This document shows positions 18,314-47,852 of a stretch of 59,037 nucleotides of DNA, one piece after another. A model generated the notes under the pieces. The model had not been told where the DNA came from, did no database searches, and saw nothing but the letters and a program-made list of their open reading frames with translations. Source of the stretch: Labilibacter marinus (lineage in GTDB: Bacteria > Bacteroidota > Bacteroidia > Bacteroidales > Marinilabiliaceae); NCBI RefSeq assembly GCF_001659685.2, contig NZ_LXYE02000056.1:1-59037 (forward strand). Reading direction: 5' to 3'. Numbering within the stretch: the first letter of the stretch is position 1; the number at the start of each line of letters is the position of its first letter. The translations under genes and the position numbers were made by a program.

Positions 18314-18321
18314 CCATAGAT

Positions 18322-20673: not shown

Positions 20674-20681
20674 AGTTTTAA

Positions 20682-24575: not shown

Positions 24576-24578
24576 AAA

Positions 24579-25550: not shown

Positions 25551-25590
25551 CTATAGTAGAAGAATATTTATCTATAAAGGTTTTGTAATC

Positions 25591-26226: not shown

Positions 26227-26269
26227 ACGTTTATAACCAATATTTATTGAACACAAATATATTATCTGT

Positions 26270-26881: not shown

Positions 26882-26886
26882 TTCAT

Positions 26887-28221: not shown

Positions 28222-28229
28222 TTGTAACT

Positions 28230-28781: not shown

Positions 28782-28792
28782 TTCATTTACCA

Positions 28793-29974: not shown

Positions 29975-30001
29975 TGAGGTTCTTTAATAAAATCATAAAA
30001 A

Positions 30002-31111: not shown

Positions 31112-31154
31112 TTATAAGTTTATTAAGTAGTAATAAATATTCTATATTATTGGC

Positions 31155-32246
31155 ATGAAGGTTTTAATGATTACAGATAATCTAATGAAGGGTGGTAAGG
31201 AAAGACGTTTGTTAGAATTACTGCGATATTTTGATAATATAAATAGTATACAAATTAAACTAGTATTGCTTAAAGACTTGGTCGAATATCCTTCTGTTTT
31301 CGAGCTAAAAAGGACTGAGGTAATTATTTTAAAGCGTAAGATAAAAAAGGATCCAACGGTATATTTTAAATTATGGAGTATTGTTAGTTCTTTTCGTCCT
31401 GATTTAGTGCATAGCTGGGGAACTATGCCGTCGGTTTACATGTTTTCCATTTGTGCATTAAAAAACATACCATTGTTAAATGCAATGATAACCAATGCGA
31501 TGTGTGTTAAATATTCTTCAACATGGTATAGGGCTAAGTTAACATTTCCTTTTTCTAAGATAGTACTTGCTAATTCGCAAGCTGGGTTGGATGCATATAG
31601 CGTACCAATTAAAAAAGGTCGTGTGATTTACAATGGTTTTAATTTTGATAGATTTAATAATCGTAAGAATGAGTATAATGTTAAAGTTAAATATGGTGTT
31701 GAAACTCCTATTTGCGTTGGAATGGTAGCATCATTCACAAAAAGGAAAGACTATGAAACTTACTTAAATGTTGCTAGTGAAATTTGTAAAAAAAGGAATG
31801 ATATAACTTTTTTTGCAATTGGAGATGGACCTATGTTAGCCGATTATAAAGTACGTTATAAAGATTGTGAAAATATTGTATTTACTGGCAATGTTATGGA
31901 TGTAGAGTCAATAATAAATATTCTTAATGTAGGAGTGTTATTATCAAACCCTTCTTTTCATTTGGAAGGCATATCGAATGCATTAATGGAAATGATGGCC
32001 TGTGGAGTACCTGTAATTGCGAGTAAAGGAGGAGGAACAGATGAGCTTATCGATCATTTAAAGACAGGTATATTAGTTAGTTCTTGTAACAGTCGAGAGT
32101 ATACAAAATGGCTATTAAAAGTTATAGAGGATGAGGATATTTCAGAACGTTTGTCTAAAAATGCTATTAATATAATTACTAAAAAGTTTAGTATTGAATC
32201 TATGGGGGGGAATACGCTTAAATTGTATAATAATATAAAAGATTAA
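31155..32246 (+). CDS. Glycosyltransferase, GT4 family
   Basis: A 363-residue GT4 protein with the acceptor loop DNLMKGGKERRLLELL, the segment LVHSWGTMPS, and the donor site HLEGISNALMEMMACGVPVIAS followed by GGGTDELI. Motif quality is high. It follows the preceding glycosyltransferase after 43 bases and precedes the next by 12, and is transcribed with them. Specificity unknown. Confidence 0.9.
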   Translation: MKVLMITDNLMKGGKERRLLELLRYFDNINSIQIKLVLLKDLVEYPSVFELKRTEVIILKRKIKKDPTVYFKLWSIVSSFRPDLVHSWGTMPSVYMFSICALKNIPLLNAMITNAMCVKYSSTWYRAKLTFPFSKIVLANSQAGLDAYSVPIKKGRVIYNGFNFDRFNNRKNEYNVKVKYGVETPICVGMVASFTKRKDYETYLNVASEICKKRNDITFFAIGDGPMLADYKVRYKDCENIVFTGNVMDVESIINILNVGVLLSNPSFHLEGISNALMEMMACGVPVIASKGGGTDELIDHLKTGILVSSCNSREYTKWLLKVIEDEDISERLSKNAINIITKKFSIESMGGNTLKLYNNIKD

Positions 32247-32258
32247 AGTCAGAATAGT

Positions 32259-33341
32259 ATGCAAAAGTCGATAGCTATTTTAATCGGGTCATTAGCAAAA
32301 GGAGGAGCGGAGAAACAGTGTATATTATTAGCTCTCGCTCTTTCTCAACATTATAAAGTAACTCTTTTTATCCAGGATATAAATCGTAGTGCAAAGAGTA
32401 ATCTGGATAGAGTAATGGTAGGAAATGTTACAATAGTTGAAGTTAAGGGTAACCTATTTAAAAAAGTTAACATTTTAAATAAAAGTATTTTAGAAGAAAA
32501 TATTTTTCTATTGTTTTCATATTTAACAATGGATAACTTTTTGGCCGGTCTGGTAAAGTTAAATAATAGAAAATTAAATGTTATAGGAGGGGTTAGGAAC
32601 TGTAAATTGGAAGCGCATAAATTGTGGTTAACAAAACTATTACATAATAATGTTTTTGATGCAACAATATTCAACAATATTGACGGGATGAAGAGCTTCA
32701 TTAAAAAAGGTTTTAAAAAGGACAAATCTAGGATGATACATAATTGTATTGACCTTGATAAGGAAGAAATTGATAGAGAAAGTAAAGATTGCCTAAACGT
32801 GATAAGTGTAGGCCGGTTTGTTAAGCAAAAGGACTACTTTACTGCTTTAAAAGTATTTAAAAAGTTATCCGAATTTTATCGAGGAAAGATAAATCTCAAA
32901 TATAATATTGTTGGCTATGGTATACTTGAACATGAAATAAGGGATTTTATTGATCAAAATAAAATAAAAGGAGTTGATTTAGTAGTTAACCCTAGACCAG
33001 AAATAATCAAACAATTATATATTGAGTCTCACGTTTATTTATGTACATCCATTTTTGAAGGTCTTTCAAATACTTTGTTGGAGGCGGCCTTTTATAAATT
33101 ACCTATTGTATGTACAAATGTGGGAGATAATACCGAAATTGTTCTGCATGAATCAACGGGGTTTGTCGTTAACGCATTAGATGTTAATCAACTTGTAGCT
33201 GCAATGAAATTATTAATTAATGATGATTCTTTACGAACCAAGTTTGGAGAAGCTGGAAGTATACATGTAAGTGAAAGTTTTTCAGTTAACAAATTCAAGG
33301 AAAATTATTTGCAGCTAATATCTAGCTATACTAATTGCTAA
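32259..33341 (+). CDS. Glycosyltransferase, GT4 family
   Basis: A 360-residue GT4 protein starting with IGSLAKGGAEKQCILLALAL (acceptor loop) and carrying the donor-site segment SIFEGLSNTLLEAAFYKLPIVCTNVGD, with the paired glutamates of the family. ISVGRFVKQKDYFTAL marks the start of the C-terminal Rossmann half. Last of the glycosyltransferases before the acylation genes. Confidence 0.9.
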   Translation: MQKSIAILIGSLAKGGAEKQCILLALALSQHYKVTLFIQDINRSAKSNLDRVMVGNVTIVEVKGNLFKKVNILNKSILEENIFLLFSYLTMDNFLAGLVKLNNRKLNVIGGVRNCKLEAHKLWLTKLLHNNVFDATIFNNIDGMKSFIKKGFKKDKSRMIHNCIDLDKEEIDRESKDCLNVISVGRFVKQKDYFTALKVFKKLSEFYRGKINLKYNIVGYGILEHEIRDFIDQNKIKGVDLVVNPRPEIIKQLYIESHVYLCTSIFEGLSNTLLEAAFYKLPIVCTNVGDNTEIVLHESTGFVVNALDVNQLVAAMKLLINDDSLRTKFGEAGSIHVSESFSVNKFKENYLQLISSYTNC

Positions 33342-33351
33342 TATATAAATA

Positions 33352-34788
33352 ATGTTGTTTAATTCATTTATTTTTATATTCTTTCTAGCGGTTTCTATAC
33401 CAGTGTATTATAGTTTAGCCAGTAAGAGGGGTAGGAACCTTTGGTTAGTGTTTTGTAGTTATTTCTTTTATGGATATTGGGATTGGAGATTTTGTTCATT
33501 ATTAGCGATATCCACTATTGTTGATTATTTCATAGGCATCCTAATAAGTAAAGAGAATCGTAAACCTACAAGAAAACTATTACTAATAATAAGTTTGAGT
33601 GCTAATTTGGGTATTCTAGGCTTTTTTAAATATTTTAATTTTTTTGTTGATAGCTTTAGTTCATTAGTTGAAGGGTATGGTTATAATTTAGATTATTTAC
33701 ATATTAATATTATACTCCCAGTTGGAATAAGTTTTTATACATTCCAAACATTATCTTACACAATTGATGTTTATAAAAAACAACTGACCGCAACAAATAA
33801 TTTCATAGACTTTGCTTTATATGTATCTTTTTTTCCTCAGCTTGTCGCCGGGCCGATTGAAAGAGCTACAAACCTAATACCGCAAGTCTCAAGGGTAAAT
33901 GGGGCAACGAAGAATCAGATTTACGATGGGGTTGTGTTAATTGTTTATGGACTATTTAAAAAAGTATTAATTGGGGATGCGTCCGGAAGGTATGTTGATC
34001 ATATTTTTTCTCATATGGACAGATACTCGTCTTGGGAACTGTTGTCAGCTACACTACTATTCTCGATTCAAATATATGCAGACTTTTCTGGCTATTCTAA
34101 TATTGCAAGAGGTACAGCTAAACTTTTTGGTTTTGAATTAATGAAAAATTTTAATCAACCGTACCTATCAAAAAATATAACAGAGTTTTGGAGACGATGG
34201 CATATTTCTTTATCGGGTTGGCTAAGGGATTATTTATACATTCCATTAGGTGGTAACCGAAGGGGAAGATACCGAACCTACATTAATCTAATGCTAACTA
34301 TGTTGTTAGGTGGATTATGGCATGGGGCTAGTTGGAATTTTGTTATATGGGGCGGAATGCATGGTTTTTATTTGGCGGTACATAAAATAATCGTATCTTT
34401 TTATAAAACACCCTTCATTAATGTCCAGAAAAGTAAGTTCATAAATGGTATTAATGGCTTTGTTAGTATTATTGCAACTTATTTTCTAGTTAATCTAACC
34501 TGGTTTTTCTTTAGAGTTAATAATATAAGCTCTGTTAGCGAATACTATAAAATATTGTCTAATTGGAATTGGGGTAATTATCCTCATAGGTTTTTAACAA
34601 TTGTATTGGGTTTTGTAGGAATCACATTTTTATTTGATCTCCTTGAATATAAGAGTCGTAGTCATGTTTTTCTAGGTCAATTGCCTAATAAATATATTTC
34701 ATATGGTGTTATGTTTGTTATGTTTATGTTAGTTTCTTTTTATATGATTAATTCGCAACCTCTTCCATTTATTTATTTTCAATTTTAA
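33352..34788 (+). CDS. MBOAT O-acyltransferase (AlgI-like)
   Basis: A 478-residue membrane protein with about ten hydrophobic segments. It matches the AlgI/PatA/DltB group: FFPQLVAGPIER, ITEFWRRWHISLSGWLRDYLYIPLGG and GLWHGASW, with catalytic His324 in the last. These proteins pass acyl groups across the inner membrane for O-acylation of exported polysaccharides. An SGNH-type periplasmic partner normally completes the transfer; two SGNH genes follow directly, the first after four bases. Confidence 0.93.
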   Translation: MLFNSFIFIFFLAVSIPVYYSLASKRGRNLWLVFCSYFFYGYWDWRFCSLLAISTIVDYFIGILISKENRKPTRKLLLIISLSANLGILGFFKYFNFFVDSFSSLVEGYGYNLDYLHINIILPVGISFYTFQTLSYTIDVYKKQLTATNNFIDFALYVSFFPQLVAGPIERATNLIPQVSRVNGATKNQIYDGVVLIVYGLFKKVLIGDASGRYVDHIFSHMDRYSSWELLSATLLFSIQIYADFSGYSNIARGTAKLFGFELMKNFNQPYLSKNITEFWRRWHISLSGWLRDYLYIPLGGNRRGRYRTYINLMLTMLLGGLWHGASWNFVIWGGMHGFYLAVHKIIVSFYKTPFINVQKSKFINGINGFVSIIATYFLVNLTWFFFRVNNISSVSEYYKILSNWNWGNYPHRFLTIVLGFVGITFLFDLLEYKSRSHVFLGQLPNKYISYGVMFVMFMLVSFYMINSQPLPFIYFQF

Positions 34789-34792
34789 TGAG

Positions 34793-35818
34793 ATGAAAAA
34801 TATTAAAAAGTTAATATCTTTTATAATAGGAGTAGTTGTTGCTTTATTACTATTGGAAGGATACTATCAAGTTGTAGAAATTCAGTTACCATATCATAGA
34901 TTAACAAAGGAGTTAGGTAAGTCAATGAACCCTTCGAAAAGAATATCAATATTTAAAGAAGGATTTTATTTAGGTCAAGTAAATCAATTTGGATACTTGG
35001 GTTATCCTTATCCTCCTTATAAGGATGATAATTCAATAAGAATAGGGGTTATTGGAGATTCTCATACAGAAGGTTTTCATATGTTTGAAGATTATCATTT
35101 CACCCAATTACTGGAAGAAAGAAGTAATAATTATTTAGATAATAGAAAAGTTGAGGTGCTTAATTTTGGGGTAGGTAATTATAATTATAACGATATGATA
35201 ATTTTATATAAAAATCTGGCCTCTAAGTTTAATTGCGATTACTATATTTTTGTGGTAGAACCTAAAGATTTCAGTTTTCGTAATAATTTTGTGCCATCTC
35301 CAATATTAGCCTATAAAGATAGTTTAGTAATAGACTATTCTTTTGTAAATAAAAATATGTATAAATTGTACAATAGCCTAAGTTTCATTTTTGAAAAAAG
35401 TTGTATTGTAAAGTCAATGAATAATGCTTACAAACTCTCAAAAAGAGACAAATTTAAAAGTATTATTTTTGATAAGTTTTACCAACCTAAAGTAGATGCT
35501 GTAGACTCTATTATCTATAAGAAAAAAGAGATTGGTATAGATACTAGAATTACTAGGTCTTTTGATTGGTTAGGTAAATTGAATACTTTTTTTATTTTTA
35601 AGAAGGAAATTACGCCAAATATCAAGGAACTTTTGGATACAGCAAGAGTTAATTATAGTTGTGTATATCAGGATTTACTAAATGTAGGAGAAACTCAAAG
35701 AGACTACTATTATTGGGATGTAACTAATACGTATGGACATTGGAATTATGAAGCCCAAGAAGTGGTTTCAAATCATATTTTTAATGTATTAAGAAATAAG
35801 GGATGTTTGAAAAATTAA
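34793..35818 (+). CDS. SGNH-type O-acyltransferase partner (AlgJ/AlgX-like role)
   Basis: A 341-residue protein with an N-terminal membrane anchor (about 7-22) and an SGNH/GDSL fold facing the periplasm. GDSHTEG places the nucleophile at Ser90; LNFGVGNYNYND gives the Gly/Asn block; and TYGHWNYEAQ near the C-terminus gives the catalytic His. Directly after the MBOAT gene it is the expected partner transferring acyl groups to the polymer. It overlaps the next SGNH gene by 16 bases. Confidence 0.82.
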   Translation: MKNIKKLISFIIGVVVALLLLEGYYQVVEIQLPYHRLTKELGKSMNPSKRISIFKEGFYLGQVNQFGYLGYPYPPYKDDNSIRIGVIGDSHTEGFHMFEDYHFTQLLEERSNNYLDNRKVEVLNFGVGNYNYNDMIILYKNLASKFNCDYYIFVVEPKDFSFRNNFVPSPILAYKDSLVIDYSFVNKNMYKLYNSLSFIFEKSCIVKSMNNAYKLSKRDKFKSIIFDKFYQPKVDAVDSIIYKKKEIGIDTRITRSFDWLGKLNTFFIFKKEITPNIKELLDTARVNYSCVYQDLLNVGETQRDYYYWDVTNTYGHWNYEAQEVVSNHIFNVLRNKGCLKN

Positions 35819-36534
35819 AAAAAAATATTTTAATTATCGGAATAAGTGTTTTTTTAATTGGTGTATTCGTTTTTTATTTAATACTACTCTCATACAAGAA
35901 TCAAAACTTAGAAAAAATAGAGTATGGCGTTAACGATATTGTTGTATATCCGAAAGGTTATAACCATATGGTATTAATTGGTGATTCGAGAGCTAAAGAT
36001 TGGCATAATTCTTTTTCTGAAAATATCAATTACATTAATCTTGGAGTAAATGGTCAAACAAGCATCGAAACACTTCAAAGTTTTAAGTATAATGTTGATC
36101 ATGGCTTTAAACCCCAAAGTGTTATTCTACAGGTGGGGATTAATGATCTTAAATGTATAGGTTTCGAGAGGGATATAGATATTACTAAAGTATGTATTAA
36201 TAATATTAGTGAAATTATTAGAATATGTACTTCAAATGATATTGAAATAATTTATACTTCCATATTTCCAGTAGGTAAACCAGAATTTGTTAGAAAATGT
36301 TTTTTATGGGATGATATTACGCGTTATAGAATATTAGAAGTAAATTGTGAGATGAAAAAAATAGTAGCAGAAATTGATAATGCATATTATTTTGATTCAT
36401 ATCTTTTGTTGAAAGATATGAATGATCAACACCAAATATGCCAAGATTATTCTAGGGACTTTCTTCATCTAAACACAGAAGGTTATAAATTATTATCTGT
36501 ATCATTCGAGAATTTTTACTTAAGTAAGTACTAA
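35803..36534 (+). CDS. SGNH/GDSL-family hydrolase or acyltransferase, membrane-anchored
   Basis: A 243-residue protein with an N-terminal membrane helix (about 8-29). All four SGNH blocks are visible: GDSR (Ser62), GVNGQTS, GINDL (Asn114) and DFLHLNTEGY (Asp/His). It probably acts on acyl esters in the periplasm, either adding them with the MBOAT protein or removing them. The start overlaps the previous gene by 16 bases, which indicates translational coupling. Confidence 0.82.
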   Translation: MFEKLKKNILIIGISVFLIGVFVFYLILLSYKNQNLEKIEYGVNDIVVYPKGYNHMVLIGDSRAKDWHNSFSENINYINLGVNGQTSIETLQSFKYNVDHGFKPQSVILQVGINDLKCIGFERDIDITKVCINNISEIIRICTSNDIEIIYTSIFPVGKPEFVRKCFLWDDITRYRILEVNCEMKKIVAEIDNAYYFDSYLLLKDMNDQHQICQDYSRDFLHLNTEGYKLLSVSFENFYLSKY

Positions 36535-36578: not shown

Positions 36579-37133
36579 ATGATTCAGACAAAGAAAGATT
36601 ATAAAGACTATTTAGAAGCAGATAGAGTAGCTCTAGGTATAAATAGAGGAATTAGAACAAGAATTAAGCAAATTATTGCGCCACATTATATTTGGCAGTT
36701 TCAAAAGAAACTTCGGAAATTAGAATATTATAAAAACTGTAGGAAAGATATTTGGGGTAAAATTAGGTGCGAGTTTTTAAGATTAAGTTTTAAAAAAATA
36801 TCCGTAAAATTAGGTTTTTCAATTCCAATAAATGTTTTTGGTTCAGGACTTGCTATTGTTCATTACGGAACTATTGTAGTAAATAAAGCAGCCAAAGTTG
36901 GGGAAAATTGCAGGATCCATGCTTGCACTAATATCGGGGCATCCGCAGGAAAAAAAGAAGCTCCCAAAATTGGTAATAATGTGTATATAGGACCTGGTGC
37001 GAAAATCTATGGAGATATCATGATTGGTAATAATGTTGCTATAGGGGCTAATTCAACCGTAAATAAGACTTTCGAAGAGGATTATATTTTAATTGCGGGG
37101 TCTCCAGCAAAGAAAATAAAGGACATCTCTTAA
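36579..37133 (+). CDS. Serine acetyltransferase-like hexapeptide acyltransferase
   Basis: A 184-residue LbH protein related to CysE but lacking its long N-terminal helical domain; polysaccharide clusters often hold this short form. Motifs are GSGLAIVHYGTIVV (catalytic His), ENCRIHACTNIGA and NNVYIGPGAKIYGDIMIGNNVAIGANSTV. It is the fourth hexapeptide acyltransferase of the locus and probably modifies a sugar rather than serine. Last gene before a 300-base gap. Confidence 0.83.
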   Translation: MIQTKKDYKDYLEADRVALGINRGIRTRIKQIIAPHYIWQFQKKLRKLEYYKNCRKDIWGKIRCEFLRLSFKKISVKLGFSIPINVFGSGLAIVHYGTIVVNKAAKVGENCRIHACTNIGASAGKKEAPKIGNNVYIGPGAKIYGDIMIGNNVAIGANSTVNKTFEEDYILIAGSPAKKIKDIS

Positions 37134-37434
37134 TTTTACAGGTTATTTTTTTTTAGTAAACGAATTCTATATATTTGTAATCTTCCTTTTTTTTAAAGTT
37201 TACCTAGAACTTATTAATGTATAATATAAGGTTGTTTTAATATCATGAATATTTCTTATTCGGGATATCTGACTGAACAAATTTTCCTTTGCTATATATT
37301 GACTGCATTCACTATTTTATAATAGCATATTATAAAAAATGACATTGTAATAATACTTTACTTGTATTTTTTAGATAAATTTATAAAAATATTAGTTGTG
37401 TAGAAGCGTTATTCTAAAACTTAAAATTCGAATT
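37134..37434. other. Intergenic region upstream of the secreted lyase gene
   Basis: This 301-base AT-rich gap is the first real break in the operon. A TAnnTTTG box (TATATTTG, 37170-37177) is present with TTTT rather than TTTG 19 bases upstream, a possible weak promoter about 250 bases before the lyase start. The length suggests the lyase and following genes may have their own promoter. No coding region seen. Confidence 0.4.
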
Positions 37435-40400
37435 ATGAATAGTTCTTGCCTTAAAATATTGTTAATTCTTTTGTTATCTTGGTTTTATGTATTTAGTAAT
37501 GGTCAAAAAATATTTCCCAATGCTATGGGATATGGCTCAGACTCTAGAGGAGCTTATGCAGGAGGTGTAACTCCCAAAATCCTGATTGTTGATACAATGC
37601 ATGCTGGTGAATTAAAAACTTCGGAGAATTCAGGATCGTTTGAGTGGTGCGTAAAGCAAAACTATCCTAGAATTGTTGTTTTTAAAGTTGGCGGAGTAAT
37701 CGATTATACTAATACTAACCAACGAACCATGTTTATTAATAATCCATATTTAAATGTTTATGGTCAAACAGCACCCTACCCTGGCGTTACAATTAATTCT
37801 TGTTCTATTTTTATTCGTGCTAATGATATGCTATTTCAGCACATAGCAGTTCGTTATGGAGATGCACCTAAAATTGATGGTTCCTATGAAGTACAAGATT
37901 GCCTTACTATTACTGAAAATGGGTATAATGTAGTTATTGATCATTGTAGTTTCTCATGGTCTCAAGATGAAATAGTTGGAAATTATGGTAATAATACAAC
38001 ATTTTCTAACTGCTTAATGTATGAACCTTTACATTACTCATTACATGCCGACGAGTATGGCGTACATCATCCTGAACCACATGGATACGGTCCGCTAATT
38101 TCTATTTATGGAAGATTTGCATTCCTTAGAAATTTTCTTGGATGGACAACTAATCGTAATCCCCGACTTTCTGTAACAAACTTTGTTAATATTAATAACT
38201 ACGTATATTCTAATTCTTATTATGGGCCTGATGTATCAGGAAGCAAAGGTGATATTAAGGGAGTATTTATTGGTAATGTTAATCGCCCTACAGAGGGGAT
38301 AAACCATTACTTAACTGAGTATTCCACTTATATTAGGAGTAATGTGTCGTCTTCTTCAATAATATATTTTGAGGATAATGATTGTTTGCGGAAGTTAAAA
38401 GGATATTCAGAGAAAGATTGTGTTCGTGCGGATGCAGGACCATCTAGGGTTAATGATATTTATGCTACAGACATTAAAAGTACAGGGATGGACATGACAG
38501 GAATAAGAGTTATGCCTTCTAATGAAGTAAAGCAATATGTAATAGATAGCGTCGGGGCAAGATATTGGGACCGAGAAGATTGTGATAGGCGCGCCATAAA
38601 TAACTTTATTAATGGGACGCAAGATTTTATTAATTCTCAGGATCCGTTGCCTGCTAGAGCATATAATGAATATATGTATGATGGTTGGGAGACCAAGGAT
38701 GGTAACATGGAAAATGGATATAATTTTGCTAATAATCCTATTTCGTTTACTATAAATGAAAAACAAATAACATTAAATTCAAATTTAACAAGCCAAAAAC
38801 AGGTTTTAGATGCTATTAATGCTCAAGTTCCAGCTGGAGTAGAAGCAATCGATCATCCTCATACTCAGAGTTACCATTTGGTTATTCAATCGAAAGAGGT
38901 TGGCAGTTTAGCGAAAATTAATGTCCAAGGGGATGATTTAAGAGTGTTTGGTATTTACCCTAACGAATATGTTGGTAGTGATGGAATAGGTGGCTTTCCT
39001 AGCTATTCAACGGTAACAAACGAACACTTTCAGCTACCATCTAAACCACATGAAGATGATAATAACAACGGGTATACAAATATTGAAGAGTGGGTATTTA
39101 ACATTGATAAAGATTTATGTAGTACTTTAAAAGTTAACCATGAGATTAAAGAAGCGGATAGTGGTGAAAACAATGGTACCATAAAATTAAATGTAACGGG
39201 GGGTACTCCGCCATATTCTTATAAATGGTCTGATATAACTGATAATACGGAACAACGTACAGGTTTATCTGTGGGATTATATAGTGTTGTTGTTACAGAT
39301 CAATCTGGTTGTACTATAGAGAAATCAATTACGATTAGTGAATTAGCAGACCCATGCGTTAACTTTTCTTTATCAGTAAATAAAACTGACTGCAACCAAG
39401 GAGAATCAAATGGAGAGATTAGTTTATCTGGAACTAATGGGAAAGAACCATATGTATATGATTGGTCCGATATTGATGATGATATTGCAACTAGAATAAA
39501 TCTTAATCCAGGTAAATATGATGTAATTGTAACGGACAACAATAACTGTTTTATAGAAAAAAATATTACGATTGCGCAGATCGCAGATCCCTGTATTGAC
39601 TTTGACGCAGGTGTAAGTAGTATTAACTGTAACGAAGGAGAGTCTAATGGCTCTATAAGTATTTCTTGTTCAGGTGGAAAGGAGCCCTATAGCTATAAAT
39701 GGACAGATTTTAATGAAAGTGTTGCAAATCGAGAAAACTTAAATCCTGGTGATTATAATGTTACAATCTCAGATTTAAATGGTTGTATTATAGAAAGGAA
39801 TATTGTAATTGCTCAAATTGATGATCCTTGTATTGATTTTTCAGTTGCTATTAATACAACAGAGTGTAATGAAGGAGAATCTAATGGGGCAATAAACTTA
39901 ATTTGTTCTGGAGGAACTGAACCGTACTCATATAAATGGGATGATGTAACAGATAATGTTAGCTATCGTTCATCTTTATTAGATGGAAATTACAGCGTCC
40001 TTATCATCGATGAAAAAGGTTGTAAATTGAATAAAGGAATTGTTGTAAATAAAATTGTTAAACCAGCTGATGAACTTAATAGAATTGATATCGTATCTTA
40101 TTCTAACTCTACGAATAGAGAAGTTAAGATGGTATACAAAAGTGAAAAGGATGTAGTTGTTGATGTAACTGTATTAGATTCTAGTGATAAGGTCGTTCAG
40201 AATTTTAAGCAAGCAGCAGTAAACGGTGTTGATAATATAATTATTATTGATTTATTAGAAGAAGAAGATGGTGAATATAAGATTGTACTAGAGGATGAAA
40301 ATGGTGCTAAGGCAAGTTCATTTATAACCAAGGAACCAAAAGAAGTATTGCTTGAGTTATTAAAATACTTTCCATCTCCAACTGCAGGCCTAGTTGCAGT

Positions 40401-40602
40401 TGAATATAAAGTTTCAAAGAATAGAACTGTTTATTTTAGAGTTTTGGATGAATTGGGTCAGGAGTTATTAAACTTTACTAAAGAAGCTAAGGCAGGCACT
40501 AATAAAGCAATGATAGATTTTAAAGAATTTGAAAATGGTATTTATACTGTTTTATTTTCAAGCGAATTGATTATAGTTAAGTTTGAAATAACAAAACAAT
40601 AG
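37435..40602 (+). CDS. T9SS-secreted pectate-lyase-like beta-helix protein with SprB repeats
   Basis: A protein of about 1055 residues. ATG 37435 is chosen because it begins a clean signal peptide (LLILLLSWFYVFSNGQ); the frame extends to a TTG at 37396. Residues about 25-430 form a pectate-lyase-type parallel beta-helix, with VVIDHCSFSWSQDE and the RNPRL segment that usually carries the catalytic arginine. A DDNNNGYTNIEEW linker follows, then four SprB repeats of about 78 residues (561-875), each starting with a Cys and N-E/Q-G-E-S-N-G and ending G-x-Y. A type A T9SS sorting domain (YFPSPTAG to the end) closes it. It probably trims or binds the polymer made by this locus. Confidence 0.88.
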   Translation: MNSSCLKILLILLLSWFYVFSNGQKIFPNAMGYGSDSRGAYAGGVTPKILIVDTMHAGELKTSENSGSFEWCVKQNYPRIVVFKVGGVIDYTNTNQRTMFINNPYLNVYGQTAPYPGVTINSCSIFIRANDMLFQHIAVRYGDAPKIDGSYEVQDCLTITENGYNVVIDHCSFSWSQDEIVGNYGNNTTFSNCLMYEPLHYSLHADEYGVHHPEPHGYGPLISIYGRFAFLRNFLGWTTNRNPRLSVTNFVNINNYVYSNSYYGPDVSGSKGDIKGVFIGNVNRPTEGINHYLTEYSTYIRSNVSSSSIIYFEDNDCLRKLKGYSEKDCVRADAGPSRVNDIYATDIKSTGMDMTGIRVMPSNEVKQYVIDSVGARYWDREDCDRRAINNFINGTQDFINSQDPLPARAYNEYMYDGWETKDGNMENGYNFANNPISFTINEKQITLNSNLTSQKQVLDAINAQVPAGVEAIDHPHTQSYHLVIQSKEVGSLAKINVQGDDLRVFGIYPNEYVGSDGIGGFPSYSTVTNEHFQLPSKPHEDDNNNGYTNIEEWVFNIDKDLCSTLKVNHEIKEADSGENNGTIKLNVTGGTPPYSYKWSDITDNTEQRTGLSVGLYSVVVTDQSGCTIEKSITISELADPCVNFSLSVNKTDCNQGESNGEISLSGTNGKEPYVYDWSDIDDDIATRINLNPGKYDVIVTDNNNCFIEKNITIAQIADPCIDFDAGVSSINCNEGESNGSISISCSGGKEPYSYKWTDFNESVANRENLNPGDYNVTISDLNGCIIERNIVIAQIDDPCIDFSVAINTTECNEGESNGAINLICSGGTEPYSYKWDDVTDNVSYRSSLLDGNYSVLIIDEKGCKLNKGIVVNKIVKPADELNRIDIVSYSNSTNREVKMVYKSEKDVVVDVTVLDSSDKVVQNFKQAAVNGVDNIIIIDLLEEEDGEYKIVLEDENGAKASSFITKEPKEVLLELLKYFPSPTAGLVAVEYKVSKNRTVYFRVLDELGQELLNFTKEAKAGTNKAMIDFKEFENGIYTVLFSSELIIVKFEITKQ

Positions 40603-40671
40603 AATGGTCAAAAGAGTAATGATTTATCTATGGTTGAATGGTTGTATATGTTTGAAATTAAACATGATAAA

Positions 40672-41526
40672 ATGAAAAGTATTGCAGGGGTATTAACATT
40701 TTTTTTAATTGTTGCTATGTTGTTTTCATGCAAGCATAATGGATATAAGGATAAAATTAAGAGAGTAAATAAGAAGGATGTTAATGTATTATTCTTGCAT
40801 CACAGTACAGGAAAGTATATTTATAGAGGAGGCCTAATAGGTAAGGAATCTGCAGTCAAAAAATGGTTTGAGAGTTATAATGAAGGAGCCGATTCGAAAA
40901 TAAATTTTGTGGAGGAAATTTTTCCTAAAAGGGCAAAATATAAGTTTCAAACCGCTTATGGATGGAATAATTATCCTTACGACTATTTTAATATATGGGT
41001 TAAGAATGGCGATAAAAAAGAGTTTGTGAAGGAACCTACTTTAAAATTGTTGGCACCTTTATGGGATGTTATCGTTTTAAAACATTGTTTTCCTGTATGT
41101 GAAATAGGGGAAGATCTGGAAGTAAATATAAATTCGGAATACAAATGTATAGGGAATTATAAGTTACAATATGAAGCGATAAAAAAGGAAATGCACAAAT
41201 ATCCTAATACAAAGTTTATAGTGTGGACGGGTGCTGCATTAACGAAAGAAAACTCTAACGAAAATCAATCAATGAGAGCAAAAGAGTTTTTCTATTGGGT
41301 AAAAAATGAATGGGCAAGTGACCTAGATAACATATATGTATGGGATTTCTTTGATCTGGAAACGGAAGGTGGGATATATCTGTTGGATAAATATGCTAAA
41401 GCACCTAACGATTCACATCCGAATAAGGAGTTCTCTGCAAAGGTGGTGCCGTTATTTTGTAATAGAGTTGTTGATGTGGTTTTTAATAAAGGTAAAAACA
41501 CTAATATATTAGGAGAGAATAAATAG
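40672..41526 (+). CDS. SGNH-like exported lipoprotein
   Basis: A protein of about 284 residues. ATG 40672 is preferred over the frame's earlier starts (40630, 40648) because it begins a lipoprotein signal with lipobox LFSC (Cys20). FLHHSTG (Ser45 candidate) near the start and a C-terminal D-S-H-P-N segment suggest an SGNH-like hydrolase fold in a divergent branch. It follows the lyase gene and precedes the ACP cassette. A role in polymer deacylation or acylation at the envelope is inferred from context. Confidence 0.65.
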   Translation: MKSIAGVLTFFLIVAMLFSCKHNGYKDKIKRVNKKDVNVLFLHHSTGKYIYRGGLIGKESAVKKWFESYNEGADSKINFVEEIFPKRAKYKFQTAYGWNNYPYDYFNIWVKNGDKKEFVKEPTLKLLAPLWDVIVLKHCFPVCEIGEDLEVNINSEYKCIGNYKLQYEAIKKEMHKYPNTKFIVWTGAALTKENSNENQSMRAKEFFYWVKNEWASDLDNIYVWDFFDLETEGGIYLLDKYAKAPNDSHPNKEFSAKVVPLFCNRVVDVVFNKGKNTNILGENK

Positions 41527-41720: not shown

Positions 41721-41966
41721 ATGGTAACGATGAAGGAACAGATTAAAAATTTTATTGCTGAAACAACATTTATTGATGCTTCAACAATTAATGATGATAC
41801 GCTAATCTTTGATGAAGGAATTTTTGATTCTATGGGATTATTAAGTCTTATAAGTTTTATTGAGGAAGAATATGGAGTTGTGGCGGAAGATACAGAATTG
41901 CAAGAGGATAATTTTGGAAGTGTTGAACGCATAGCTGCTTTTGTTGAAAAGAAGAAAGCTGCCTAA
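41721..41966 (+). CDS. Acyl carrier protein
   Basis: An 81-residue carrier protein. Ser37 in the motif FDSMG is the 4'-phosphopantetheine site, flanked by the usual helices and acidic surface. The opening ATG GTA ACG ATG offers a second start at 41730. It is not the fatty-acid ACP context (no fab genes). It heads a cassette with an AsnB-like amidotransferase, a NadE-like protein and an acyl-AMP ligase, so it probably carries an acyl or aminoacyl group destined for the polysaccharide. Confidence 0.9.
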   Translation: MVTMKEQIKNFIAETTFIDASTINDDTLIFDEGIFDSMGLLSLISFIEEEYGVVAEDTELQEDNFGSVERIAAFVEKKKAA

Positions 41967-42016
41967 TTTTGTTTGAACATAAATTGTGATAAGAGTGAAA
42001 ACTTAATAGAGATATT

Positions 42017-43990
42017 GTGTGTGGAATAGCAGGTTTTATACCGAAACAAGTCAATTTTGACCGTCAATGTATTTTAAATTCCATGTTAACTCGTATTCAC
42101 CATCGTGGACCAGATGAATGTGGTATTTATCTGTCGGATGACTTATGTATGGGTAACGTTAGGTTAAGTATTATTGATTTAAAATCGGGTCAGCAACCTT
42201 TATCAACAGCTGACGGACGCTACTGGATTGCATATAATGGTGAAGTTTTTAATTATCCTGAATTAAAGAAGAAACTGGAAGCTAAAGGTCATTCCTTTAA
42301 AACAAATTGTGATACCGAAATTGTACTCCATATGTATGAAGAGTATGGGGTTAAATGTTTGGAGCAATTGAATGGTCAGTTTGCATTTTCCATATGGGAT
42401 TCGTTTAATAAGGAGTTGTTTTTAGCCAGAGATAGAATGGGCATTAGGCCTCTTTATTATTCAAATTCAACTTCCTCTTTTGTTTATGCATCTGAGATTA
42501 AGTCAATATTTGAATATCCTGAAGTTGAAAGAAAGTTGGATGCCGAAGGGTTGAGTCAGGTATTTACTTTCTGGACTTCTCAATCGCCCCAAACCGCCTT
42601 TGAAGGTATCTCAGAGTTACCACCAGGACATTATGCTATTTTAAAAAATGGCAATCTAAATATAAAGCCTTATTGGCAGTTATCCTTTGATAAACCAGTA
42701 GACATTAGTCTAGGAGATGCTGTGGATCAGTTTCGCGAATTATTCAAGGACTCCTTGTCTTTACGTATGCGTGCAGATGTTCCTGTAGCTGCATACTTAA
42801 GTGGAGGTATTGATTCAACTAGTACAACTGCTTTTATTAAGCAGATGTTTCCTGAAGCTTTAAATACCTTCTCTATTGGATTTGAAGAGAAAGACTTTGA
42901 TGAGTCTATTTTTCAAACTGAAGTGGCTAATTATTTTGATACTAAACATCATTCAGTTTCATTTAATAATTCGGATGTAGTTGATTTATTTGAGAAAGTA
43001 ATTTGGCATACTGAGATACCTGTGTTAAGAACTGCTCCATTTCCTATGTATAAGCTGTCTAAGTTGGTTCGAGATAGTGGAATTAAGGTGGTTATTACAG
43101 GAGAAGGAGCTGATGAAATGTTAGGTGGTTACAATATCTTTAAGGAAGTATTGATACGACATTTTTGGGCGAAATTTCCTAATTCAAAAATTCGTCCTTT
43201 ATTACTAAAAAAGCTATACCCTTATTTGCCTCAAATAAATGATGCGGGTACGAGTGTATTAAAGATGTTTTTTGGTTATAAGTTATCTGAAACTGATTCA
43301 TCCGTTTATTCTCACTTATTAAGATGGAACAATACAAGTAGAATAAATGGCTTGCTTTCCAACGATTATAAAGAGCAACTTAATGGTTCGGATTGGGTGG
43401 CAAATTATGCTAATAGAATTAGTCCTATTGTAGAAAACTACTCTCCAATTGCAAAGGCTCAGTATATAGAATCAAATGTTTTTATGTCAGGGTATTTGCT
43501 ATCGTCACAAGGAGATAGAGTTGCGATGGGGAATTCGGTTGAAGGTAGATACCCATTTCTTGATCATCGTATTGTCGAGTTTTGTTCTAAACTACCTGAT
43601 CATTTAAAAATATCAGGCTTGGATGAAAAATACTTGCTTAAGCAAGTCGTTAAGGATGTTATTCCAAATTCGGTATTAAAAAGACCGAAACAAGCTTATA
43701 GAGCTCCTATTGCTCAAGCATTATTGAATGACAAATCTGGCTTTGTAAATGATTATTTATCAGAAGGAAAGATTAAGGATTCAGGTATTTTTGATACGGG
43801 TAACACATTAAAACTTACAAAAAAGTTACGTAATAATCCAAATTCTAACGAAATGGATAATATGGCTTTAATGGGAATGTTATCTACACAAATATTAAAT
43901 GATTTATACATTAAAAACTTCAGGCAATTGAAGGAGAATGAAATAAATTCGGGAAGAGTGATGAATAATTATTATTCTAAAAAAAATTAA
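42017..43990 (+). CDS. Asparagine synthase-family glutamine amidotransferase
   Basis: A 657-residue AsnB-type enzyme. The start is GTG, chosen because it places the catalytic cysteine at position 2 (M-CGIAGF), exposed after Met removal. The N-terminal Ntn glutaminase (1-190) releases ammonia. The synthetase domain has the PP-loop SGGIDST (Ser262) and GEGADEMLGGY, which adenylate a carboxylate and amidate it. Related enzymes occur in exosortase-associated polysaccharide clusters, where the substrate is not free aspartate. With ACP upstream and NadE-like downstream (7-base gap), it probably amidates an acyl group of the polymer pathway. Confidence 0.88.
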   Translation: MCGIAGFIPKQVNFDRQCILNSMLTRIHHRGPDECGIYLSDDLCMGNVRLSIIDLKSGQQPLSTADGRYWIAYNGEVFNYPELKKKLEAKGHSFKTNCDTEIVLHMYEEYGVKCLEQLNGQFAFSIWDSFNKELFLARDRMGIRPLYYSNSTSSFVYASEIKSIFEYPEVERKLDAEGLSQVFTFWTSQSPQTAFEGISELPPGHYAILKNGNLNIKPYWQLSFDKPVDISLGDAVDQFRELFKDSLSLRMRADVPVAAYLSGGIDSTSTTAFIKQMFPEALNTFSIGFEEKDFDESIFQTEVANYFDTKHHSVSFNNSDVVDLFEKVIWHTEIPVLRTAPFPMYKLSKLVRDSGIKVVITGEGADEMLGGYNIFKEVLIRHFWAKFPNSKIRPLLLKKLYPYLPQINDAGTSVLKMFFGYKLSETDSSVYSHLLRWNNTSRINGLLSNDYKEQLNGSDWVANYANRISPIVENYSPIAKAQYIESNVFMSGYLLSSQGDRVAMGNSVEGRYPFLDHRIVEFCSKLPDHLKISGLDEKYLLKQVVKDVIPNSVLKRPKQAYRAPIAQALLNDKSGFVNDYLSEGKIKDSGIFDTGNTLKLTKKLRNNPNSNEMDNMALMGMLSTQILNDLYIKNFRQLKENEINSGRVMNNYYSKKN

Positions 43991-43997
43991 AAGAATT

Positions 43998-45011
43998 ATG
44001 AAATTAGAACGCAAACCTTTTTCAAAAGATATTCTTCATCTTGATAATGTGGATGAAGTAATTGATGAAATTTGCCAACAACTACGTGAAGATGTCTATA
44101 AAAAATTTCGTCGTTATGGAGGCGTTATTGGAATAAGTGGTGGAATTGATTCTTCTGCAACATTAGCTATTGCTGTTAAGGCTTTTGGAGCTGATAAGTT
44201 ACTTGGTATTATGCTTCCAGAAACGGATTCTAGTCCTGACAGTGAGGAGCTTGCTAGAGAGTTAGCAAATAAGTTTGGAGTTAATAGTATTGTTGAGAAC
44301 ATCAGTGGAGCCTTAAATGGTTTTGGATGTTATGTAAGAAGAGATGATGCTGTAAAAAGTGTAATTCCAGAATTTAATCCCGAAGTGGATAAAATGAAGG
44401 TGATAATTCCTCAGGAATTTGTAAATAAGAATATGCCACCAGTTCACTATGCAGCTGTCATTTTTGAAGATGGATCAGAAAAACAAGCCAGACTTCCAAT
44501 GAAAGAGTATTTGCAAATTGTTGCAGCATCTAACTTTAAGCAACGTTGTCGAGCTAATATGTTATATTTCCATGCAGAAGCATTGAATTATGCTGTATTG
44601 GGTACGCCAAATAAACATGAAGTTCAACAAGGATTCTTTGTTAAGTATGGAGATGGAGCTGCAGATGTAATGCCAATTGGAAACTTATATAAGACTCAAG
44701 TGTATCAAATAGCTAGACACTTGGGAGTTCCAGAGGGTATTTTGCAAAGAACACCTACAACAGATACTTATACTGCAGAGCAGACTCAGGAAGAGTTTTT
44801 CTACCAAATGCCATTTGAAAAAATGGATTTATTATGGTACGGTTGGGAGAATGATTATTCAGCAGAAGAAGTTGCAAAGGTAATGGAAATGACCCCTGAA
44901 CAGGTGGAAAAAATTTACAAAAATTTTGCTCGTAAAAAGAAAACAACAGAGTATTTACGAACTCCTCCATTACACCACTATTGTTTAAAAGGAGAAAAAA
45001 CAGAGCAATAG
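43998..45011 (+). CDS. NAD synthase-like ATP pyrophosphatase (polysaccharide-cluster paralogue)
   Basis: A 337-residue protein related to ammonia-dependent NadE but longer than the usual 245-275. The PP-loop is SGGIDSS (47-53). KYGDGAADVMPIGNLYKTQVYQIARHLGVP and the LGTPNKHE segment match NadE. An insertion of about 50 residues (110-165) and the sequence PTTDTYTAEQTQEE in place of the usual deamido-NAD-contacting region set it apart. It lacks a glutaminase or nitrilase domain, so ammonia must come from elsewhere, perhaps from AsnB. It is more likely a pathway enzyme adenylating and amidating a carboxylate than the housekeeping NadE. Confidence 0.82.
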   Translation: MKLERKPFSKDILHLDNVDEVIDEICQQLREDVYKKFRRYGGVIGISGGIDSSATLAIAVKAFGADKLLGIMLPETDSSPDSEELARELANKFGVNSIVENISGALNGFGCYVRRDDAVKSVIPEFNPEVDKMKVIIPQEFVNKNMPPVHYAAVIFEDGSEKQARLPMKEYLQIVAASNFKQRCRANMLYFHAEALNYAVLGTPNKHEVQQGFFVKYGDGAADVMPIGNLYKTQVYQIARHLGVPEGILQRTPTTDTYTAEQTQEEFFYQMPFEKMDLLWYGWENDYSAEEVAKVMEMTPEQVEKIYKNFARKKKTTEYLRTPPLHHYCLKGEKTEQ

Positions 45012-45039
45012 ACTTGCAAGCTGTTATAACTAACATAAG

Positions 45040-45070
45040 CACTCTGAGACTTTTGTTTCGGAGTGTTTTT
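45040..45070 (+). terminator. Possible terminator inside the cassette
   Basis: An 11-bp stem (CACTCTGAGAC paired with GTTTCGGAGTG, two wobble pairs) with a TTTT loop is followed by five T. It lies between the NadE-like and ligase genes, which suggests partial termination or a new transcript starting at the ligase. Confidence 0.6.
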
Positions 45071-45105
45071 GTTTAAAATAGGCATAAATCTTTAATGTTG
45101 TAACC

Positions 45106-46563
45106 ATGAATTGCATAGATTTTTTATTACCAAAAGAAATAAATAAAGAGGAGGTTTTTATACTTGGTAAAAGAGAGGAACTTACCTTTTCTGATTTAAA
45201 ACAACAGGTTTCTTCGTTGTCATCTTATTTGAAATCTGAGTTTGGTGTTGGTAAAAAGATGTTACTGTTATCTCCAAATACGAATTTCTTTATCATTACT
45301 TATTTAGCAATAATGAAGTCTGGTAATGTGGTTATACCATTAAATCCTGCTACGGAAGAGGATGCTTTAATTTATATTAAAGAACAAACAGATGTGCAGC
45401 TTTCTTTTATTCCTCAATTATTGCAGAATAGGATAAGGGTCGATTTAGGAAAAGTTATTGGAGAACAAGACGTTCAGCAAGTGGTTGAAAATAAACCTAA
45501 AGAGTATAGTGTTCATGACGGGTTTGATGGAAATAGTCTTGCTCAAATTATTTATACTTCTGGTTCTACGGCCATGCCTAAAGGGGTAATGATTTCGCAT
45601 AACAATATTATAGCAAATACTACTTCTATAATAGACTATTTGAACCTAACTTCTATTGATATTATGGAATGTGTGCTTCCTTTTTTCTATTGTTATGGCT
45701 TATCATTATTACATACTCACCTTCGGGTAAAAGGAAAGATGGTTTTAAATAATAATTTTATATTTATTGGTTCTGTTATTGATGACCTTAAGAAATATAA
45801 ATGTACAGGATTTGCTGGTGTTCCAAGTCATTTTCAAATATTACTTAGGAAATCTGATTCCTTTAAAACGTCAAAATTTCCTGATTTAAGATATGTTACT
45901 CAAGCGGGAGGAAAGTTACATACCGTTTTTATTGAAGAATTTACAAAAGCCTTACCAAGTACTAAATTTATTGTTATGTATGGACAAACAGAGGCGACAG
46001 CTAGATTGTCATATTTACCATACGAAAGGTTAACAGACAAATTAGGGTCGGTTGGAAAAGGAATTCCAGGAGTCGAGTTAATGGTAGTAAATAATGAAGG
46101 GGAGAAAATCAAATCAGGAGAAGTAGGTGAGATTATTGCAAAAGGTGAAAATGTAATGCTTGGGTATTATAAGGATGATAAAACTACATCTGAAACGATA
46201 AAAGACGGATGGTTATATACGGGAGACCTAGCTACAATTGATGGTGATGGTTTTATTTATCATTCAGCCAGAAAGAAAGAAATTATTAAGGTGGGTGGGA
46301 AAAGGGTCAGCCCTAAGGAAATTGAAGAGGTTATTGTATCTATGCCAGGAGTAATAGATTGCACTATTAGTGCGGTGGAGGATGAAATTCTAGGGGAGGC
46401 AATAAAAGCCGTTTTGGTTCGGAATGAGTCAGAAAGAGGACTAGGAAGTCATGAGGTTAGAGAGTTCTGTAGTACCAAACTAGCTAATCACAAAATTCCA
46501 ACGTTAATTGAGTTCACGGCTAAGATGGACGTAAATGCAGCGGGTAAAAAAGTAAAGAAGTAA
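45106..46563 (+). CDS. AMP-forming acyl/aminoacyl ligase (ANL superfamily)
   Basis: A 485-residue adenylating enzyme. The P-loop motif YTSGSTAMPKG, the MYGQTEA motif, the GWLYTGDL motif, the hinge near GGKRVSPKEIEE and the C-terminal lysine in NAAGKKVKK are all present, so both half-reactions should work. It activates a carboxylic acid as an acyl-AMP and transfers it to a thiol, here plausibly the ACP of the same cassette. The length is typical of stand-alone adenylation domains and exosortase-locus ligases. The acid cannot be predicted from sequence alone. Confidence 0.88.
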   Translation: MNCIDFLLPKEINKEEVFILGKREELTFSDLKQQVSSLSSYLKSEFGVGKKMLLLSPNTNFFIITYLAIMKSGNVVIPLNPATEEDALIYIKEQTDVQLSFIPQLLQNRIRVDLGKVIGEQDVQQVVENKPKEYSVHDGFDGNSLAQIIYTSGSTAMPKGVMISHNNIIANTTSIIDYLNLTSIDIMECVLPFFYCYGLSLLHTHLRVKGKMVLNNNFIFIGSVIDDLKKYKCTGFAGVPSHFQILLRKSDSFKTSKFPDLRYVTQAGGKLHTVFIEEFTKALPSTKFIVMYGQTEATARLSYLPYERLTDKLGSVGKGIPGVELMVVNNEGEKIKSGEVGEIIAKGENVMLGYYKDDKTTSETIKDGWLYTGDLATIDGDGFIYHSARKKEIIKVGGKRVSPKEIEEVIVSMPGVIDCTISAVEDEILGEAIKAVLVRNESERGLGSHEVREFCSTKLANHKIPTLIEFTAKMDVNAAGKKVKK

Positions 46564-46715
46564 ATTGAATACTTTATTCTTCCCAGTTCTAGAGTGATTT
46601 GATTTACCTAAATGAGAATGCAGTTGTCATATTTTTGGGGTTGTTGGTGGAATTATTGTTTCTTCTTTTATAATACGAACGTACATTTGAAGGTATATAT
46701 AAATAGACTATACAT

Positions 46716-47852
46716 ATGGACTCAATAGGTACAACATTAGATAACCTACAGGATGCAGGTGTAGCCGAAGTTATGGTGGAGCAAGAAGTCGTAGGGAGTT
46801 TAATAAAACAAGATAATAGCAAAGAAAATTTGCTTCAGAATATTGATATAAATGTTTATGAGTATATTTCTCAGCATATAATACCTGAAAGAGAAGGTGT
46901 CATGGTCTTAGATGCAAACTCATCAACAGATTTTGATCAATACGATTTTTCGAAAATAACAGGGCTTATCAATCTTAGGCAAATAAATAACAGTAGATTT
47001 ATTAATCGATTTTTAATTAAGGTTAATAGGTCATTACCTGATGCTGGTATTTTTATTGGTTGTGTGGAAACGGTACGATATAAAAAAAGGAAACATTTTG
47101 AGAAAGGAAAAAATTTCTTAAAATTACTGACTTGGTTGTTTATATTTATAATTCATAGGGTCTCACCTAAAACAAAATATCTACAAAAGATATATTTTGG
47201 CTTAACTAAAGGGCGATATCGTTGGGTTACCATGGCGGAAGCCTTAGGTAGAATTGTAAGTTGTGGATTTGAGATAATTGAGTATAAGGAGGTAAATGGA
47301 AAACTGTACTTTGTAGTGATGAAAACAGCTGAACCTGACTTTAGTAAAAAGCCATCATTTGGTCCTCTTTTCCCAATGAATAGAGTCGGTAAAGGAGGTG
47401 AAATGATAAAGGTTTATAAATTTAGAACTATGCATCCTTATGCGGAATACTTACAAGGTTTTGTAGTTAAACTAAATGGTTATAACGAAGTTGGTAAACC
47501 TGCCAATGATTTTAGGTTAGCAGGTTGGGGACAAATATTTAGAAAGTATTGGTTAGATGAATTGCCTCAATTATATAACCTTCTTAAAGGTGATTTAGGT
47601 GTAGTAGGTGTTCGTCCTTTGAGTAAGACTCGTTTTAATGAATTGCCTAAAGAAGTTCAAGAAATGAGGGTTAAGTTTAAGCCAGGTTGTATTCCGCCAT
47701 ATGTAGCTTTAAATATGCCCGACTCAGATGGTAATATCGAAGCCGAGCGCATTTATATGGAAGAAAGGTTAAAAAATGGTTTTCGTACGGATATTAAGTA
47801 CTTCTTTTTAGCAGTATATAATATTCTAACGGGTAAGATAACCAGCTCTTAA
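46716..47852 (+). CDS. Polyprenyl-phosphate phosphoglycosyltransferase with N-terminal extension
   Basis: A 378-residue sugar transferase that would start repeat-unit synthesis by putting a sugar phosphate on undecaprenyl phosphate. The C-terminal 190 residues carry the monotopic PGT signature: VGKGGEMIKVYKFRTM, then FRKYWLDELPQLYNLLKGDLGVVGVRPL, then FKPGC. The usual single membrane helix is replaced by a long N-terminal region of about 210 residues. That region includes GIFIGCVETVRYKKRKHF, a hydrophobic segment ending VSP (128-145) and a GRYRWVTMAEALGRIVSCGFEI block. I recall this architecture in other Bacteroidota polysaccharide loci; the extension's role is unknown. Last gene of the locus. 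Confidence 0.85.
   Translation: MDSIGTTLDNLQDAGVAEVMVEQEVVGSLIKQDNSKENLLQNIDINVYEYISQHIIPEREGVMVLDANSSTDFDQYDFSKITGLINLRQINNSRFINRFLIKVNRSLPDAGIFIGCVETVRYKKRKHFEKGKNFLKLLTWLFIFIIHRVSPKTKYLQKIYFGLTKGRYRWVTMAEALGRIVSCGFEIIEYKEVNGKLYFVVMKTAEPDFSKKPSFGPLFPMNRVGKGGEMIKVYKFRTMHPYAEYLQGFVVKLNGYNEVGKPANDFRLAGWGQIFRKYWLDELPQLYNLLKGDLGVVGVRPLSKTRFNELPKEVQEMRVKFKPGCIPPYVALNMPDSDGNIEAERIYMEERLKNGFRTDIKYFFLAVYNILTGKITSS

Follow-up and report, generated by a model that had tools for sequence, protein, structure and literature searches.

A conserved ACP, AsnB, NadE-like and ligase gene cassette with an SGNH-like partner in Labilibacter marinus: a possible source of amide-bearing exopolysaccharide groups

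What does a protein of the NAD synthase family do among the genes of a polysaccharide locus? This question is raised by a stretch of 59,037 nucleotides from Labilibacter marinus (contig NZ_LXYE02000056.1, positions 1 to 59,037), referred to as the window. It contains a long exopolysaccharide (EPS) locus, which begins near position 17531 and has at its 3' end five genes for an acyl carrier protein (ACP), an AsnB-type glutamine amidotransferase, a NadE-like ATP pyrophosphatase, an AMP-forming ligase and a phosphoglycosyltransferase (PGT). The family matches are, in this order, PP-binding, GATase with Asn_synthase, NAD_synthase, AMP-binding with AMP-binding_C, and Bac_transf. The intergenic gaps measure 50, 7, 94 and 152 bases. 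A previous sequence-only reading had described these genes as one unit with intact key sites, and both the open reading frames and the sites were found as described: Ser37 of the ACP, Cys2 and SGGIDST of AsnB, SGGIDSS of the NadE-like protein and the lysine of the ligase, in a GKK motif close to the C-terminus. With a probability of roughly 0.55, we propose that this is a carrier-protein pathway which, judged by the enzyme families, would make an amide-bearing acyl group for the exopolysaccharide.

NadE-like proteins above the cut-off of the NCBI family NF002048 were present in 12 of 198 genomes of the order, 13 of 395 genomes of the phylum and 39 of 71 genomes of the family, the genome of L. 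marinus being included in each sample. We compared 75 loci, comprising 11 from the order sample, 13 from close relatives in GTDB, 12 from the phylum, 38 from the family and the window itself (individual loci and genomes are cited by L and G numbers). Within 8 kb of the NadE-like gene the ligase was found in 73 loci, AsnB in 69 and the ACP in 63, and the exact gene order ACP, AsnB, NadE-like, ligase was kept in 43. The DSx motif of the phosphopantetheine site was retained in all 63 ACP matches. Around canonical NadE genes, examined in 20 control loci that all come from carrier genomes, neither ligase, AsnB, ACP nor any other cassette neighbour occurred within this distance (0/20). ACP, AsnB, NadE-like protein and ligase are a genuine conserved cassette across several phyla, and the co-occurrence in relatives to which the earlier reading had looked is strong. 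The PGT, by comparison, was found near only 28 of the 75 NadE-like genes; it is ruled out as a core gene, and the proposed unit stands for the other four genes only. An SGNH-like protein, a pectate-lyase-like protein and an O-acyltransferase of the MBOAT family are encoded within 8 kb in 24, 15 and 4 loci, respectively.

The 13 GTDB relatives belong to Bacteroidota, Zixibacteria, Nitrosomonadales, Sorangium, Rhodoplanes, Nitrospira, Bosea, a Brucellaceae metagenome-assembled genome and Planctomycetota. Named records with cassette relatives, mostly metagenome-assembled, fall into Bacteroidota, Pseudomonadota, Nitrospirota, Myxococcota, Zixibacteria and Planctomycetota. The 67 more distant of the 80 GTDB loci (L065-L131) were left uncounted, and the cassette was absent from the six of them that we inspected. 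A paralogue in genome G125 (L050), which has no cassette gene nearby, was excluded from the 75 loci.

The NadE-like protein scores 430 bits against NF002048 (PRK00876, "NAD(+) synthase"; cut-off 313). Its fold is that of an NAD/nicotinamide mononucleotide (NMN) synthetase with an inserted stretch, and the fold matches include the NMN synthetase 3fiu, a substrate-switched member of the family. The PP-loop SGGxDS is present in the window protein and the loop pattern in 72 of the 75 NadE-like proteins; L183 and L184 read SGGLDS and L064 is cut by a contig end. As the sequence-only reading had stated, the protein carries an insertion. It comprises about 60 residues (about 109-170) without counterpart in 12 out of 12 other NadE-family sequences, including the NadE of the same genome. 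All 12 of these have a lysine near the C-terminus and a leucine or methionine in the P2 loop, whereas the 13 aligned NadE-like proteins have Leu320 and Thr257 at these positions, which we take to have a role in dinucleotide binding in canonical NadE. A P[ST]xDT loop distinguishes 74 of the 75 NadE-like proteins from the others (0/12). The motif HK[RKM] near the C-terminus, absent from all 75, was given up as a discriminator in favor of the aligned positions because only 8 of the 12 other NadE sequences contain it.

The genome of L. marinus encodes a separate NadE-family protein of 549 residues, so that the NadE-like protein is not its only candidate NAD synthase and a housekeeping role is rejected there. 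Of the 37 carrier genomes examined for a further NadE, L. marinus included, 33 have one; the other four are metagenome genomes. NAD synthesis by the NadE-like protein is therefore unneeded in these 33, and since two otherwise fixed positions are also changed it is probably not the NAD synthase of the cell. A spare NAD/NMN synthetase among functionally unrelated neighbors would account for the family name, the score above the cut-off and the fold match. We nevertheless regard it as highly improbable in view of the second NadE, the linkage to ACP, AsnB and ligase in several phyla, the insert and the altered residues.

A fifth partner had been missed in the earlier reading. It is encoded just upstream of the ACP gene and is an SGNH-like, putatively secreted lipoprotein with a hydrophobic N-terminus followed by a cysteine, as read from the sequence; no Pfam or NCBIfam family matched at E 0.01. 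In the 71 family genomes this protein was detected in 36 of 39 cassette carriers and in none of 32 non-carriers (Fisher 4e-17, kinship ignored), the weakest match being that of G633 with 68 bits over half of the query. All eight strong matches (>100 bits) of the order sample fall in carriers. Three carriers of that sample contain a second, distantly related SGNH family, type b (profile comparison E 1.7e-5, probability 79%; the G125 match is the query itself), and one type or the other is present in 10 of the 12. The blocks HHS[TI]G and SHP[NS] are kept among five SGNH-like sequences.

In 23 cases (19 of the family, four of the order sample) the SGNH gene was found apart from the cassette. We fetched 20 of these loci, all but those of G614, G631 and G633, and in 16 the gene lies among EPS-type genes. 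In the four exceptions (L257-L260), L258 has ACP and AsnB, and L259 and L260 have a gene for a hexapeptide (LbH) acyltransferase. Locus L254, one of the 20, is not truly apart, because it is probably the continuation of the contig on which cassette L206 breaks off. The ACP absent from the cassette loci L204 and L210 (genomes G637 and G638) adjoins the SGNH gene instead, and the same holds for both ACP and AsnB in the case of L047 (genome G067). On this distribution, the predicted lipoprotein belongs to the cassette system.

Two ligase kinds and a METHYLTRANSFERASE are found among the cassette loci. In a FastTree phylogeny of 71 rows the window kind is separated from TIGR03098-like ligases. It has the A4 motif PFxYCYG, without an aspartate, and the solved structures nearest to the window ligase are feruloyl-CoA, oxalyl-CoA and malonyl-CoA synthetases. 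The other kind is of the amino-acid type and reads [SA]FDYG in 11 of 15 rows; its aspartate presumably binds the amino group of the substrate. The ligase of L209 is nearest to adenylation domains of nonribosomal peptide synthetases (NRPS), with the FD aligned to theirs. L209 comes from the genus of the window, and its ACP, AsnB and NadE-like protein are 74, 73 and 74% identical to those of the window, its ligase 28%. Going by these identities, the ligase kind changes within the genus while the other three proteins stay.

The amino-acid-type ligases are often accompanied by a PrmC/HemK-like methyltransferase. A protein of this kind with the motif CNPPY was found with 7 of 11 amino-acid-type ligases and with 0 of 58 others (L174, L197, L184 and L062 were dropped from the test and the two halves of L060 were counted separately). 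Outside this count it is also present in L213, where the ligase is in two frames (motif AFDYGLY), and in L064, where the contig ends before the ligase. The PrmC/HemK paralogue (NPPY) is located at L209:12157-13065 and further occurs in L187, L207, L213, L214, L222, L057, L061 and L064; in the family loci its gene overlaps the end of the ligase gene. An additional PrmC was present in 8 of 8 methyltransferase-bearing genomes tested (Bosea was not among them). In G119 a second PrmC-like gene is found on a contig other than that of the cassette. The name of the PrmC model refers to methylation of a glutamine side-chain amide, and the paralogue is therefore a hint that the cassette product may bear a primary amide.

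Based on these families we propose the following pathway. The window ligase would adenylate a small, non-amino carboxylic acid and load it onto the pantetheine arm of the ACP. AsnB, the NadE-like protein or both would then convert a carboxylate of the loaded group to an amide. In both cases the family is one of ATP pyrophosphatases, which activate a carboxylate so that ammonia or an amine can attack it; the glutaminase domain of AsnB could supply ammonia, and the NadE-like protein has no such domain. The finished group might be passed to a sugar by an acyltransferase of the LbH or MBOAT type, and the SGNH lipoprotein is expected to act on the polymer outside the cytoplasm. The assignment of enzymes to substrates, the order of steps, the transferase and the product are guesses. 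Loading of an acid on the ACP followed by amidation had already been suggested from the sequence. An acid-loading ligase, an ACP and two amide-forming ATPase families fit this, as does the methyltransferase in relatives, which the earlier suggestion did not include. More tentatively, and with the odds against it, a PP-loop enzyme taken over from NAD synthesis would amidate the ACP-bound acid with ammonia from AsnB. EPS in several phyla would then carry carboxamide groups, which relatives would turn into N-methyl-carboxamides by means of the PrmC paralogue, and acid and amino-acid ligases would be exchangeable loading modules.

The two amide-forming enzymes could alternatively catalyze separate reactions, with AsnB amidating the uronic acid of a sugar nucleotide or of a lipid-linked sugar and ACP, ligase and NadE-like protein making a different acyl group. 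Relatives of AsnB of the TIGR03108/WbpS kind make uronamides (PMC7468200, PMC3684757), and the pectate-lyase-like genes found near 15 of the 75 cassettes are a hint that the polymer contains uronic acid. The cassette AsnB resembles WbpS and WbqG in being an AsnB-type enzyme of a polysaccharide locus. It scores, however, 444 bits against TIGR03108 (401-465 for the six out of 6 full-length relatives tested), far below the cut-off of 817, and in L177 a cassette AsnB (442) occurs together with a second, distinct AsnB with TIGR03108 as best model (509, also below the cut-off). AsnB as a plain WbpS is not supported by these scores. Furthermore, the ACP and AsnB genes are usually immediate neighbors, an arrangement that suggests a substrate bound to the carrier. 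We thus consider two separate amidations doubtful and retain amidation of a carrier-bound group as the preferred explanation.

A known system with similar components is that of Dlt D-alanylation. This system consists of the ligase DltA, the carrier DltC, the MBOAT protein DltB and the SGNH-like protein DltD. The window likewise has a ligase, a small carrier protein, an MBOAT gene and, with weak fold evidence, an SGNH-like protein. In contrast to Dlt, the closest NCBIfam models to the window ACP, those of the OlsHI ACP and DltC, are both missed (36.6 bits against the DltC cut-off of 68), the ligase lacks the aspartate of amino-acid-type A4 motifs, the cassette adds two amide-forming enzymes, and the MBOAT gene of the window is 10.6 kb away from the NadE-like gene. 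An obligatory MBOAT transferase is rejected, since only 4 of 75 NadE-like genes have such a gene within 8 kb, and only 9 of 47 SGNH genes, that of the window included, have one within 9 kb. In 22 of these 47 loci the SGNH gene has an LbH gene as its immediate neighbor on the same strand (in the window the two are 3.5 kb apart). MBOAT and adjacent LbH gene never occurred together (Fisher 0.0019 in an exploratory analysis with six query proteins, kinship ignored), as might be expected of two alternatives.

At least one EPS-type gene was found near 44 of 74 cassettes compared with 1 of 20 controls. Several observations weigh against the proposed pathway. As judged with the EPS genes of the window as queries, 30 of the 74 cassettes lack a nearby EPS-type gene, and three cassettes of the same genus (L198, L199, L209) sit among other genes; the link to a polymer therefore rests mainly on the SGNH protein. 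For this protein the predicted structure is of low quality (pLDDT 53, the predicted local distance difference test), with GDSL esterases as best Foldseek matches (E 0.0025), and four weak matches (52-64 bits) fall in non-carriers of the order sample. No single acyltransferase is conserved across the loci. ACP, AsnB and ligase are missing near 12, 6 and 2 of the 75 NadE-like genes, partly at contig ends, and the locus counts ignore kinship. The paralogue of G125 (L050:1321-2298, 36% identity) exceeds the family cut-off without ACP, AsnB or ligase nearby, and the control genome of Methanosarcina acetivorans also gives a score above the cut-off. Finally, two amide-forming enzymes for a single amide are uneconomical, so that each may serve a different substrate.

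The missing EPS genes and the same-genus copies elsewhere would also be explained if the product were a diffusible natural product and its proximity to polysaccharide genes incidental; the resemblance of the amino-acid-type ligase tested (L209) to NRPS adenylation domains points in the same direction. The nearly perfect co-occurrence of the SGNH partner in the family, the EPS surroundings of 16 of its 20 separate copies and the position of the Nitrospira and Planctomycetota cassettes in exosortase loci make this explanation unlikely. The polysaccharide link drawn in the sequence-only reading finds support in the EPS surroundings of the SGNH partner.

The same reading had mentioned exosortase-associated loci. 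Loci of the exosortase A (XrtA/PEP-CTERM) type are similar in combining an AMP ligase and an AsnB-type amidotransferase in an EPS setting, and some cassette ligases are TIGR03098-like: L060 reaches 823 bits over two stretches (cut-off 592), L063 and L209 stay below it with 484 and 454. The window ligase (284 bits) and AsnB are, in contrast, below the respective cut-offs, and the cassette adds the NadE-like and SGNH proteins. Exosortase matches were found in 11 of 25 carrier genomes, strong ones (>180 bits) in four, and near the cassette in two, namely Nitrospira L060 (exosortase W) and Planctomycetota L063. The cassette therefore overlaps with exosortase-type EPS systems without depending on them. 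An association holds for L060 and L063; for L. marinus it is rejected, since the locus contains no exosortase and the sole match of the genome is weak (55.6 bits) and on another contig. In L060 a fused double AMP ligase (L060:6723-9860), with a TIGR03098-like first half followed by a ligase of a second kind, adjoins AsnB, ACP, NadE-like gene and exosortase W. In L063 a class III aminotransferase and a WbuX-like sugar amidotransferase are encoded directly 3' of the ligase (L063:12404-14670).

The remaining features of the window are included in Table 1. The EPS genes upstream encode an export protein, a chain-length kinase, Wzy- and Wzx-like proteins, glycosyltransferases, LbH acetyltransferases and a polysaccharide deacetylase. 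The pectate-lyase-like protein is perhaps a lyase acting on the polymer of the cell itself. A methylmalonyl-CoA-epimerase-like gene of the glyoxalase family adjoins the NadE-like gene or the ligase in L177 (10506-10931), L053 (11918-12340) and L042 (7286-7717); its homologue in the window (16678-17097) is at the opposite end of the EPS locus.

Table 1. Cassette genes and neighboring features of the window.
Feature	Position	Strand	Evidence
Stand-alone acyl carrier protein, 81 residues	41721-41966	+	Ser37 in DSM; PF00550, 33 bits
AsnB-type glutamine amidotransferase, 657 residues	42017-43990	+	GTG start, Cys2, SGGIDST; TIGR01536, 533 bits
NadE-like ATP pyrophosphatase, 337 residues	43998-45011	+	SGGIDSS; insert about residues 109-170
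AMP-forming ligase, 485 residues	45106-46563	+	PF00501/PF13193; acid-type A4 motif PFFYCYG
Phosphoglycosyltransferase (Bac_transf), N-terminal extension of ~200 residues, optional neighbor	46716-47852	+	PF02397, 83.6 bits
SGNH-like, putatively secreted lipoprotein, 298 residues, fifth partner	40630-41526	+	Co-occurrence; no Pfam/NCBIfam match
MBOAT O-acyltransferase, candidate acyl transferase	33352-34788	+	PF03062, 109.5 bits
Protein without Pfam match, between MBOAT and GDSL genes	34793-35818	+	
GDSL-like lipase/acylhydrolase	35803-36534	+	PF13472, 51.5 bits
Hexapeptide (LbH) acyltransferase, second candidate acyl transferase	36579-37133	+	PF00132
Pectate-lyase-like protein with SprB repeats and weak match to a type IX secretion system (T9SS) tail	37396-40602	+	PelZ, 120.7 bits (cut-off 840); T9SS tail below cut-off
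Remaining EPS locus	17531-33341	+	Deacetylase, PF01522; other names read from sequence

The component families of the cassette are known. A description of the gene set with NadE-like enzyme and SGNH partner was not found in the open-access literature (PMC; most subscription journals lie outside this search), nor was the term PRK00876 found in any open-access PMC paper, and within that literature the set appears to be new. In the genomes examined, proteins named NAD(+) synthase after NF002048 are mostly parts of the cassette, and the name would be misleading in annotation and in metabolic models. The natural exchange of the ligase and the linked methyltransferase are direct, testable clues to the substrate. 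The cassette may also bear on the chemistry of exosortase-linked polysaccharides. Since it has relatives in several phyla, its product may be a surface modification that is widespread and has not been described.

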